Positions 14,747 through 18,626 of a DNA stretch of 64,000 nt are shown piece by piece. The stretch spans positions 1-64,000 of the forward strand of contig JAJYTW010000001.1 of assembly GCA_021792855.1 (NCBI GenBank), in the 5' to 3' direction. The notes under the pieces were generated by a model. The model was given only the letters and a program-made list of their open reading frames with translations, searched no databases and was not told the DNA's origin. This DNA is from Actinomycetes bacterium. GTDB taxonomy: Bacteria > Actinomycetota > Actinomycetes > Streptosporangiales > Streptosporangiaceae. Numbering within the stretch: position 1 is the first letter of the stretch; each line of letters opens with the position of its first letter. Position numbers and translations under genes: made by a program.

Positions 14747-14926
14747 TCAGTAGCCGGCCGGCTGCTGGTTCGACTGGCTCTTGGTCTTGGCCGGGGCTGC
14801 GTGGCCCGGCCCGCAGGCGGCCAGTCCGACCGCCATCGCGGCGACCGCGATCGCGCCCGCGATCCGCCGCGCGATCCGCGCGGAGCGCGGATGGACTACT
14901 GCTGTCTGATTCATCTTCGTATCCAT
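14747..14926 (-). CDS. Mini-lipoprotein (59 aa), last gene of sulfotransferase operon
   Basis: A short secreted protein with a positively charged n-region (RSARIARRI), a hydrophobic stretch (AGAIAVAAMAVG) and a lipobox LAAC at about residues 34-37. Cleavage and lipidation would leave a mature peptide of only about 23 residues ending in NQQPAGY. It begins 23 nt after the stop of the exporter-ASST fusion on the same strand, so it is probably the third gene of that operon. The start could instead be the ATG at 14914. No homologue is recognised; function unknown. Confidence 0.6.
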   Translation of the reverse strand: MDTKMNQTAVVHPRSARIARRIAGAIAVAAMAVGLAACGPGHAAPAKTKSQSNQQPAGY

Positions 14927-14949
14927 CCTGATGAGGAACCTGGCTACCG

Positions 14950-17925
14950 TCACCCGAACACCCGCGACGTGCCGAGCACGCGGCCACTGGCGTCCAGGGC
15001 CTGGATCTCGTACGCGTGGTAGCCGGAACGGACGGCGATGGCCGTCTCGAAGCCCGACTTCGGCGCGGTCGCGATCGGAGCGAGGTTGCCCGGGTCCCGG
15101 CCGCCGAGCACGCGCCAGGACCGCACCCGCGTCGCGCCGTTCCAGCTTGCGTAGACCGTCGTCACGCCGTGCGCGCGGCGGACGGCGCCGCTGGGCGGAT
15201 ACAGCGGAAGCCCGACCCAGGTGGCCACCTGCTTGGCCCGGTAGCTCAGGTCGGGTCCCGGCAAGACGCCGTCCAGCACCTTCCGGCCGGACCGGGTGAA
15301 CTCGGTGAAGTACGGCAGGTCGCCCCAGCCAACGAAGACGTTCCCGTTCGGCAGGATCTGGGTGCTGCCCATGTAGGCGGCCGACTCGCCGCCATGCTGG
15401 TAGGCGGCCACCAGGCGGACGGTGCGGGCAGCCGGATCGAGCTTGAGCAGCATCGCCCGGGACGGCCCGGCCGGTGCCAGGTAGGTGCCAGCGCCGGTGA
15501 TCTGGCAGCAGTTGTCGTTGAACATCGCGACCGTGGTCGGACTGGGCATGGTGACGTCGTGCTGCCACTCGAAGGTCGCGTCGGACGGGATGGCGAAGCT
15601 CGAGTGCTTGCCGCCCAGGGTCCAGTCGATCTTTCCGGTAGCCGGGTTGATCAGGTACGCGGCCCAGGTGTTCCGCATCGACACGATTAGCCTGCCGTTC
15701 CCGGCCAGGCTGATCGAGTTCACGTGGTAGACGTCCCATGGGAAGCCGTTCACCGGCGGGTTGGCGTAGGAGTCGGTCAGCGGAATATGCCGGTAGGCGT
15801 CCCAGGACCGGACCAGCCGGCCGGTCTTCAGGTTGTACTCCTGCACGGCCGAGTCCACGATCGCGCCGTTCGCCGCCCCGCCGTACCTGGTCAGGTTCAT
15901 TGGGACGTTCTTGTTCGCGGTCACCCAGGCGTCCTGACCGTCGATGACCAGCGAGTGCAGCGTCAGCACCCAGCCGTCCGCGCCCTTCAGCGTCGCGATC
16001 GTCTGGTAGTGCTGATTGACGACGACGTACTCGCCGCTCTCGGTCGCGCCGGTGCTGGTGATCGTGCCCTGCCACCAGGACAGCGCGGGCTTGCCCTGGT
16101 AGGTCTGCAGCGCCAGGTCCGAGGCGACGTCATCGACCGGTACCGGCCGGAACCAGACCGGGCTCAGGTCGTTGTTGACGATCAGCGGCCCGCTCTGGCC
16201 GATCATCGGATGCTGGGTCAGGTCGTAGAAGTTGGTCAGCAGGATGTATCCGGGGGCGAGGTCCGACTTCTCGGTCGCGATGTCGGTGCCGAGCTTCGGC
16301 GGGTGCAGGCCGGGAGCGGACACGAAGGTGTAGGCGCCCCTGGCGGTGTAGGCGCCGATCGGCGCCGCCGGCGCGCCCGCCGCGGTGGCGTCCACGAGCA
16401 CGAACACGACGATCAGCACGCCAGCGCCGAGCGGCAGCCGAAGCCGGGCACGAAGCGGGCGGCCCGCGTGGTCGTGCGCCGGGAGCAGCACCCCGGCGAC
16501 CACGGCGGCCGCCGCGGCCAGAGCCGCGCCGATGAAATAGGCGAGCCGGAATCCGCTGGTCAGCGCCTGAGACACGACCTGGTTCTGACCGATCAGATGG
16601 CTGGTGTACTGCGTTGCCATCGAGATCAGCACGGCGATCCCGAGCGACCCTCCGACCTGCCGGGAGGTGTTCACCAGGCCGGAGGCCAGGCCGGCGTTGC
16701 CAGCCCCGGCGAGTTGGGTCGCCGCGATCGTGGACGGCACGACGGATAGCCCGATCCCGGCCGCGACGAGCAGTCCGGGGAGCACCACGAAGCCGAGCGC
16801 GCTGCCGCTCGGTCCGATCCTGGTGAAGATCAGCATGCCGCTGGTCAGCAGGCACAAGCCGGTGGTCAGCACCGCCCGGACACCGAACCGGCCGATCAGC
16901 CGGTGCGCCTGCCCGGCGGACAGCACGACCATCAGGGCCATCGGGAAGAAGGCCAGGCCGGCGTCCAGCGGCGACAGCCCGAGCACCTGCTGCAGGTACA
17001 GCGAGCTTACGTACCACATCGGGAACAGTGTCGCGCTGAACAGCAGCACGATCAGGTTCGCGATCCGGAGTGGCCGGGTGAACGCGCCGGGCGGCACCAG
17101 CGGCGCCGCCGCGAGGCGGGTCTCGACCACCGGGAACATGGCAAGCAGCGCGACGCCGGCCACGATCGGGATCAGCGCCAGCGGGGCGGTCCAGCCCACC
17201 GCGCTGGCGTTGACGATCCCGTAGACCAGCACCATCAGGCCGCCGGTGAGCGACAGCGCGCCGCCGAAGTCGAACTTCGCGCCGGCGCCTTCCTTCCGCT
17301 TATCGGTGATGACGATCATCGCGACGATCGCCGCTGCGATGCCGACCGGCGGGTTGATCAGCAGCACCCAGCGCCAGCCGAATTCCTGGGTGATGATGCC
17401 GCCGAACAGCGCGCCGGCCGCGCCGCCCGCGCCGTTCATCGCCCCCCACAGCCCGATCGCCCGGTGCCTGGGCGGGCCGGGCGGGAACGCGGAGGTGATG
17501 GCGGCAAGGGAGGCGGCCGCCATCAGCGCTCCGCTCAGTCCCTGCACCGTGCGGGCGGAGACCAGCATGAACTGGCTGATAGCGGTGCCGCCGGCCAGCG
17601 AGGTGAGCGCGAACAGGGCGAGCGCCGTGCTGAGCGTGCGCCGCGCTCCGAACTGGTCGGCGAACCGCCCGCCCAGCATCAGGAACCCGGCGAACGCGAT
17701 CGCGTAGGCGTCCACCACCCACTGCAGGTTGATGGCCGAGAAGCCGAGGTCGGCCTGGATCGACGGCAACGCCACATTGACGATGGTCAGGTCCAGGATG
17801 ACCATGAACTGCGCGACGCAGGCGACGAGCAGCAGCCACGACTGGCGGGAGGAACGGATCGTCCCCTCGGCCGGCAGCGACTGCCGCTCGGCCCCGCGCC
17901 GCGGTACGCCGGCGCGAATGCTCAT
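14950..17925 (-). CDS. DHA2-type MFS exporter fused to arylsulfate sulfotransferase (ASST)
   Basis: A 991-residue fusion in one continuous frame. Residues of about 28-485 are a 14-helix DHA2 (EmrB/QacA-like) drug:H+ antiporter, with motif A GGRFADQFGARRTL and the DHA2 signature WRWVLLINPPVG. A basic loop (RPLRARLR) and an extra hydrophobic segment (about 497-521, GAGVLIVVFVLVDATAAGA) follow. From about 530 to the end is an ASST-type six-bladed propeller with the conserved pieces YHVNSISL, WQHDVTMP and SRAMLLKLD, which carry the expected catalytic His and Arg residues. ASST enzymes transfer sulfate between phenols without PAPS. The extra helix would put the propeller outside the membrane. The ATG overlaps the sulfotransferase stop (ATGA). 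Substrate unknown. Confidence 0.88.
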   Translation of the reverse strand: MSIRAGVPRRGAERQSLPAEGTIRSSRQSWLLLVACVAQFMVILDLTIVNVALPSIQADLGFSAINLQWVVDAYAIAFAGFLMLGGRFADQFGARRTLSTALALFALTSLAGGTAISQFMLVSARTVQGLSGALMAAASLAAITSAFPPGPPRHRAIGLWGAMNGAGGAAGALFGGIITQEFGWRWVLLINPPVGIAAAIVAMIVITDKRKEGAGAKFDFGGALSLTGGLMVLVYGIVNASAVGWTAPLALIPIVAGVALLAMFPVVETRLAAAPLVPPGAFTRPLRIANLIVLLFSATLFPMWYVSSLYLQQVLGLSPLDAGLAFFPMALMVVLSAGQAHRLIGRFGVRAVLTTGLCLLTSGMLIFTRIGPSGSALGFVVLPGLLVAAGIGLSVVPSTIAATQLAGAGNAGLASGLVNTSRQVGGSLGIAVLISMATQYTSHLIGQNQVVSQALTSGFRLAYFIGAALAAAAAVVAGVLLPAHDHAGRPLRARLRLPLGAGVLIVVFVLVDATAAGAPAAPIGAYTARGAYTFVSAPGLHPPKLGTDIATEKSDLAPGYILLTNFYDLTQHPMIGQSGPLIVNNDLSPVWFRPVPVDDVASDLALQTYQGKPALSWWQGTITSTGATESGEYVVVNQHYQTIATLKGADGWVLTLHSLVIDGQDAWVTANKNVPMNLTRYGGAANGAIVDSAVQEYNLKTGRLVRSWDAYRHIPLTDSYANPPVNGFPWDVYHVNSISLAGNGRLIVSMRNTWAAYLINPATGKIDWTLGGKHSSFAIPSDATFEWQHDVTMPSPTTVAMFNDNCCQITGAGTYLAPAGPSRAMLLKLDPAARTVRLVAAYQHGGESAAYMGSTQILPNGNVFVGWGDLPYFTEFTRSGRKVLDGVLPGPDLSYRAKQVATWVGLPLYPPSGAVRRAHGVTTVYASWNGATRVRSWRVLGGRDPGNLAPIATAPKSGFETAIAVRSGYHAYEIQALDASGRVLGTSRVFG

Positions 17926-18626
17926 GAGCCTGCTGTGGCGGACTGCTGCTGCCACCGCGTGACGGCGTCGAGGCTGGCGTCGATGATCCGGCCGGCGAAC
18001 GTCGCGGAGTCGTTGACATGCGGCAGCGGCGCCTGCGGAACCGGGACCTCCAGGAACGCGCAGAGCGGTTCCCAGCCGTCTGCGGGCGACCATTCGAGCA
18101 GTCGGTCCTTCGGCACGAACTGCCGGACCGACTCGTTGTGCCCCTCCATCGCCCGCGCCATCTCGTCGGCGTCGAATTCGCCCTCAAGGGTTCCGAGCAG
18201 ACCGCTCTTGCGCCACATCGCCGTCAGCAGGTCGATGTAGTTCTGCCACCGCGGGTCGATCCTGGCCCGCGCCTCGGACATGTAGCGCTGGAGCGAGTCG
18301 CCGTAGAACACGTCCCAGATGGTGTCGCGCATGCTCCGCGCCCAGGCGGCGCCGTCGCGCACGCTGAGCAGGACCTTAGCGTCCGGGAACGCGGTGACCA
18401 GTTCGCGGTAGAAGAACGAGCCTGGCCAGTCCACGGTCGACTGGCTGTCGCCGAACATCGCGGTCCAGTCGACGTTGGTGTCGAACGCGTCGGCCCAGCG
18501 GGGCACCAGATCGAGGTCGGACAGGATGTTGACCATGTGGTAGCAGGGCCCGAAGCCCAGCATCTCTAGCGCGATCTTCTGCGTCAGGGTAGCTGTCCGG
18601 GGGAGGCCAGCTCCGATGATTTTCAT
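17922..18626 (-). CDS. PAPS-dependent sulfotransferase family protein
   Basis: A 234-residue member of the P-loop sulfotransferase family seen next to secondary-metabolism genes. The N-terminal GAGLPRTATLTQKIALEML matches the 5'-phosphosulfate loop. DAKVLLSVRDGAAWARSM matches the 3'-phosphate motif with its Arg and Ser. The family transfers sulfuryl groups from PAPS to alcohol or amine acceptors in the cytoplasm; the acceptor here is unknown. The ATG at 18626 has AAAGGAG 10 nt upstream. It is the first gene of a three-gene operon with the exporter-ASST fusion. The promoter contains a palindrome, so the operon is probably regulated. Confidence 0.88.
   Translation of the reverse strand: MKIIGAGLPRTATLTQKIALEMLGFGPCYHMVNILSDLDLVPRWADAFDTNVDWTAMFGDSQSTVDWPGSFFYRELVTAFPDAKVLLSVRDGAAWARSMRDTIWDVFYGDSLQRYMSEARARIDPRWQNYIDLLTAMWRKSGLLGTLEGEFDADEMARAMEGHNESVRQFVPKDRLLEWSPADGWEPLCAFLEVPVPQAPLPHVNDSATFAGRIIDASLDAVTRWQQQSATAGS

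Follow-up and report, generated by a model that had tools for sequence, protein, structure and literature searches.

Can one polypeptide both export a compound and place a sulfotransferase on the far side of the membrane? The question is raised by a gene in a 64,000-nucleotide stretch of the genome of a soil actinobacterium, a member of the Streptosporangiaceae (contig JAJYTW010000001.1, positions 1 to 64,000; hereafter the window). Its minus-strand open reading frame (ORF) 14950-17925 has a 991-residue product that joins a DHA2-type 14-helix exporter, a basic loop, a hydrophobic segment and an arylsulfate sulfotransferase (ASST) beta-propeller resembling Cpz4. DHA2 exporters with 14 transmembrane helices (TM) end in the cytoplasm after TM14, and a sequence-only reading of the window had proposed that an extra helix places the propeller outside. 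Our comparative analysis makes it probable that an exporter was fused to an ASST bearing a Sec signal, and that the additional segment, here called segment 15, carries the propeller out. The parts of the gene are as follows.

14950..17925, minus strand: fusion gene of a major facilitator superfamily (MFS) exporter (DHA2-type, 14 TM), segment 15 and ASST, 991 residues, with PF07690 at residues 36-429 and PF14269 at 610-885
16483..17838, minus strand: exporter part, 14 helices, residues 30-481 (AlphaFold2 helices; Foldseek matches to EfpA, QacA and EmrB; PF07690)
16438..16461, minus strand: basic loop RPLRARLR, predicted cytoplasmic, residues 489-496 (mean Lys/Arg count of 3.4 over 20 fusions)
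16378..16437, minus strand: segment 15, extra hydrophobic segment, internal signal-anchor-like, residues 497-516 (hydropathy, AlphaFold2, charge, alignment)
14953..16329, minus strand: ASST propeller domain, residues 533-991 (PF14269 at 130.7 bits, Cpz4 match, Foldseek)

A propeller search of genome contigs returned 60 relatives, and all those of at least 57% identity on sufficiently long contigs are the same one-frame fusion. The aligned set used below consists of 20 fusions from independent contigs, 57-68% identical. In the window, the first ATG of the frame (18093) lies farther upstream, within the preceding gene; we used the ATG at 17925, with the stop at 14950-14952, because it fits the family alignment and forms an ATGA overlap with that gene's TGA stop. 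Pfam recognizes both halves of the product: MFS_1 (PF07690) scores 152.5 bits against a cut-off of 33.4, Arylsulfotran_2 (PF14269) exceeds its gathering cut-off of 27, and PF05935 is also above cut-off in the propeller. The exporter carries the LDxTIVNVALP signature and misses the cut-off of TIGR00711, the EmrB subfamily (210 versus 230.2 bits), so that we file it only as DHA2-type. By simple hydropathy scanning only 13 exporter helices are recognized, the glycine-rich TM5 being missed, while AlphaFold2 and the homologues give 14. The AlphaFold2 model, built from the 20-sequence alignment, shows these helices followed by a separate helix at 492-515 and then the propeller strands, with a mean predicted local distance difference test (pLDDT) of 67.5 and a predicted template modelling score (pTM) of 0.51; few sequences cover segment 15, whose helix block has a pLDDT of 40-48.

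Positions 16366-16500 encode residues 476-520, comprising the end of TM14, the RPLRARLR loop, the hydrophobic stretch and the start of the Ala-rich AGAPAAPIGA. The sequence-only reading had placed a basic loop and one further hydrophobic stretch after the fourteenth exporter helix, and we confirm both, at residues 489-496 and 497-516 (LPLGAGVLIVVFVLVDATAA): the basic flank and the hydrophobic stretch are kept in all 20 aligned fusions. The best 19-residue Kyte-Doolittle mean in segment 15 reaches 2.23 for the window's fusion protein; over the 20 fusions its range is 1.88-2.68, and no 19-mer in any fusion propeller rises above 1.29. Mean pairwise identity falls from 0.71 for TM1-14 and 0.63 for the propeller to 0.39 in segment 15 and 0.29 in the linker; hydrophobicity has thus been kept despite sequence drift. 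Judged by this conservation, segment 15 is more than a chance hydrophobic run: it is very probably a real fifteenth export or membrane segment.

Charge distribution points in the same direction. Across the 20 fusions, the mean number of Lys and Arg residues is 2.6 in the eight even (cytoplasmic) loops and 0.69 in the odd (outer) loops 1-13, and the N-in charge difference is positive in every sequence. Around segment 15, the mean is 3.4 in the preceding loop and 1.15 in the 15 residues that follow, the count before exceeding the count after in 18 fusions and equalling it in two. A fifteenth hydrophobic segment after TM14 means that the chain end is probably not inside, unlike the DHA2 pattern: 14 helices ending inside plus one extra crossing would leave the propeller outside. 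The proposed flip is very probably correct, supported as it is by helix parity, the N-in charge bias, the basic cytoplasmic side in 20/20 fusions and the secreted sister ASSTs described next, and we hold an extracytoplasmic propeller to be highly likely.

All fused propellers fall into a single clade of a tree built from 101 ASST domains (21/21, support 1.0), which gives them a single origin. Their sister group (support 0.99) consists of four separate ASSTs, one each in loci L051 and L052 and two in L076 (L and G numbers are our handles for loci and genomes), all of which begin with Sec-type signal sequences as judged by eye. At L076:2364-5618, an unfused DHA2 gene is followed about 100 bases later, on the same strand, by a separate ASST of this sister clade, a gene pair that likely represents the pre-fusion arrangement. 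The metagenome-assembled genome (MAG) that holds L076, Actinomycetes FK1.bin107, also holds a fusion, L072. Other ASST paralogues with a readable N-terminus mostly carry Tat, lipoprotein or Sec signals (again by eye), and both ASST paralogues in the window's own genome have Tat/lipoprotein-type signals. The simplest history suggested by these sequences is the fusion of an exporter-ASST gene pair, with segment 15 derived from the signal peptide of the ASST. An N-in, C-in DHA2-type exporter of 14 helices would have been joined to a Cpz4-like ASST already bearing a Sec signal sequence, and this former signal would now act as an internal signal-anchor that carries the propeller outside, next to the outer mouth of the exporter.

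The propeller retains the catalytic motifs of ASSTs, at these positions.

15559..15561, minus strand: His789, within the WQHD motif and presumed to be the His that is transiently sulfated (His436 in E. coli ASST), invariant and aligned with the WQHD of Cpz4
15718..15726, minus strand: His734-Val-Asn736, H-x-N (His356/Asn358 of E. coli ASST), by motif spacing
15673..15675, minus strand: Arg751 (Arg374 of E. coli ASST), by motif spacing
15955..15957, minus strand: His657 (His252 of E. coli ASST), by motif
15505..15510, minus strand: vicinal Cys806-Cys807, in 20/20 fusions

The active site of E. coli ASST comprises His252, His356, Asn358, Arg374 and His436 (PMC13426309). Their counterparts H657, H734, N736, R751 and H789, equated by motif and the published residue list only, are invariant in the 20 fusions and aligned with Cpz4. 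Cys806 and Cys807 are the only conserved propeller cysteines, a third Cys occurring in one sequence; the pair is also present in three of the four sister ASSTs and absent from Cpz4. It is possible that the two residues form a vicinal disulfide near the active site.

What such a device might do is suggested by the gene directly upstream, on which, as on possible propeller cleavage, the sequence-only reading was silent.

17922..18626, minus strand: PF17784 (Sulfotransfer_4) gene for a sulfotransferase of the type that uses 3'-phosphoadenosine 5'-phosphosulfate (PAPS); its TGA overlaps the fusion's ATG (ATGA)

The start of this gene (ATG at residue 24 of P0002) was picked by alignment with relatives. 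Ten fusion loci (the window, L049, L058, L059, L060, L061, L065, L067, L071 and L087) have a PF17784 gene as their immediate upstream neighbour, on the same strand; it overlaps the fusion gene by 4 bases in L060, L061, L087 and the window. The fusion's neighbour is the only PF17784 gene found in the window's genome, which also encodes an adenosine 5'-phosphosulfate (APS) kinase, for PAPS. In the caprazamycin pathway, PAPS-dependent Cpz8 sulfates a carrier and the ASST Cpz4 hands the sulfate on to the antibiotic (PMC4257720, PMC6731281). Given the upstream gene and this precedent, we hold a sulfate relay to be the most likely mechanism, and consider it possible, by analogy, that the fusion and the upstream enzyme work in this way in this and nine other loci. 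The cytosolic PF17784 enzyme would sulfate a small carrier using PAPS, the DHA2 part would export the sulfated carrier, and the tethered or released ASST would pass the sulfuryl group via His789 to an extracytoplasmic acceptor. The full picture of a transmembrane sulfation device, in which the propeller is tethered by segment 15 and takes the sulfate at the exporter mouth, is slightly more tentative; if true, it would let the bacterium sulfate extracellularly although PAPS stays inside.

Several observations weigh against the above reading. The topology is predicted from sequence and model, and the Lys/Arg statistics come from related sequences, so that the observations are not independent. 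In the window's segment 15 a uniformly hydrophobic core of only some 15 residues precedes Asp512, which is little for a stable anchor in the membrane; AlphaFold2 confidence is low there, and a pTM of 0.51 leaves the position of the propeller relative to the exporter undefined. No PF17784 gene lies directly upstream in some ten fusions (the early-branching L073 and the clade around L062-L114 with L072), hence the relay cannot be universal. Finally, no type III polyketide synthase (PKS; PF02797) matched in the window's genome, which is 93% complete: a caprazamycin-like carrier from such a PKS is rejected, and any carrier must differ from that of the Cpz pathway. The short core and the low model confidence could mean that segment 15 does not cross the membrane and that a cytoplasmic propeller, alongside a PF17784 enzyme presumably located in the same compartment, sulfates or desulfates the substrate before export. 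We consider this very unlikely, since hydrophobicity and the basic N-terminal side are kept despite sequence drift, the sister clade has signal sequences and the ASST paralogues of the same genome bear export signals. Still more improbable, to the point of being negligible, is an artefact of assembly or annotation, or a pair of genes with an internal start. Several of the MAGs that carry the fusion are fragmented, and an ORF called from the first ATG runs into the preceding gene, but an assembly frameshift is ruled out by the uninterrupted frame in 20 independent loci, on contigs from many studies. A separate propeller gene translated from an internal start is likewise rejected: no start codon within the frame that has a Shine-Dalgarno-like stretch was found to be conserved across the fusions. 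The same short core also fits a different fate, since the propeller may be cut loose instead of anchored, at the following site; both outcomes place it outside.

16375..16380, minus strand: predicted signal peptidase I-like site T514-A515-A516/G517 (cut after A516), position kept in 18/20 fusions

The sequence-only reading had noted the Ala-rich, signal-peptide-like end of the segment. In 18 of the 20 fusions this end has a small residue in position -3, Ala in -1 and Gly, Asn or Ser in +1, always at one alignment position and mostly 20 residues past the last Lys or Arg, and Ala516 is nearly invariant; the residues and the spacing fit a signal peptidase I site. Segment 15 may be a cleavable internal signal peptide, cut after Ala516, in which case the gene would specify a two-protein polyprotein that yields a free, secreted ASST and an exporter of 14 helices plus a short additional one. 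The uniform core of about 15 residues is followed by a polar, c-region-like end, and Sec signals of the sister ASSTs end similarly (for instance AASA/GS in L076). On the other hand, L063 and L073 lack the site at that position, AXA-like patterns are common in Ala-rich proteins of high-GC genomes, the motif may be left over from the ancestral signal peptide, and the permanent fusion retained in 20 loci suggests that tethering matters. With either fate, the topology could hold while the relay does not: the exporter would expel phenolics, and the outside ASST would sulfate them with environmental aryl sulfates, blocking re-entry. The exporter is of the DHA2 multidrug type, one fusion group has no PF17784 neighbour, and many of the carriers, judged from record titles, are peat, palsa and permafrost MAGs. 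We regard such habitats as rich in phenolics. ASSTs generally use aryl sulfates and phenols, but for Cpz4, the solved ASST closest to the propeller, a preference for sugar hydroxyls is reported (PMC13426309). Phenol handling also leaves the tight coupling with the genome's only PF17784 gene unexplained; we consider it possible, though slightly less probable than the relay.

The partner of the fusion differs in the clade around L062-L114, where separate ASST genes, and not PF17784, immediately precede the fusion in most members. ASST gene clusters surround the fusion in L062, L064, L066, L068, L069, L070, L072, L075 and L114, and several of these clustered ASSTs have a long N-terminal domain (VSPAPGT...SFLG...) before the propeller. 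On the other side of the fusion, a 60-residue frame with a lipoprotein-like start (ARRIAGAIAVAAMAVGLAAC) lies just 3' in the window (14747-14927, minus strand), and a separate ASST with a Tat/lipoprotein-type signal occupies the position just downstream in the relative L087.

The fusion is rare, being found in 4 of 201 genomes of the window's family, which include two further species of the window's genus (G002, on the same contig as L087, and G003) and another family genome, G738; among 397 phylum genomes sampled, the window's own aside, no close match in a fusion-length frame was seen. It is scattered over Actinomycetota groups (records titled Acidimicrobiaceae, Solirubrobacterales, Nocardiopsaceae and others), a patchiness that suggests lineage-to-lineage transfer or binning errors. 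One locus labelled Chlamydiae (L074, CAJCHW010000133.1), where the fusion is interrupted by the contig end, is a cut piece of the fused clade with neighbours shared with the actinobacterial locus L072, and its label looks like a binning error. A candidate second, independent fusion in G672 (L160 2117-5014, a 1119-residue frame) was rejected, as it has an N-terminal signal-like sequence and an ASST, and no exporter. The domain combination there is a different one: C-terminal to the ASST runs a long, repeat-like extension (GDF/GDY...DDVVYY repeats).

To our knowledge, the natural donors and acceptors of most ASSTs are not known, and an exporter together with a neighbouring PF17784 gene offers a handle for finding them. 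If the topology is right, one chain couples export to extracytoplasmic sulfation, and the fusion with its upstream PAPS-type enzyme suggests how sulfate activated inside could reach outside acceptors in bacteria. Cleavage in the middle of a transporter polypeptide at an internal signal peptide would be an unusual maturation route. In the literature searched, no description of a fusion between an exporter and an ASST came to light, and a search on MFS proteins with internal signal peptides gave nothing relevant.

Among the closest known systems is Cpz4, the PAPS-independent ASST of caprazamycin biosynthesis (PDB 9kf4, 9kf6), to which the fusion propeller is homologous over its full length (E about 6e-107), with 32-34% identity in the Foldseek alignment and the WQHD, HxN and SxRN motifs in common. 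Cpz4 works in series with a PAPS-dependent sulfotransferase, as the PF17784 gene directly upstream in 10 loci would allow here. Cpz4 differs in being a separate protein with no exporter part and no Cys-Cys pair, and in a pathway whose carrier is a triketide pyrone from a type III PKS, an enzyme not found in the window's genome. The E. coli ASST, which is accompanied by DsbL/DsbI, is likewise an extracytoplasmic propeller sulfotransferase with a catalytic His and the H/N/R set seen in the fusion (PMC13426309), but it is a free dimer in the periplasm that has an N-terminal beta-sandwich and whose signal peptide is cleaved, whereas the fusion propeller is joined to an exporter; a sequence profile search with the fusion propeller did not reach it. 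In the L076 pair, a sister-clade ASST that starts with a Sec-type signal sequence comes after an exporter on the same strand. This repeats the order of the fusion, but in two separate genes, and the L076 exporter shares only 35% identity with the exporter part of the window's fusion. As for the exporter half, its fold matches those of EfpA (8ufd), QacA (7y58) and EmrB (8zal), with a Foldseek TM-score of about 0.8 on the target; DHA2 exporters of this type end after TM14, whereas the fusion adds a fifteenth segment and a 460-residue enzyme.
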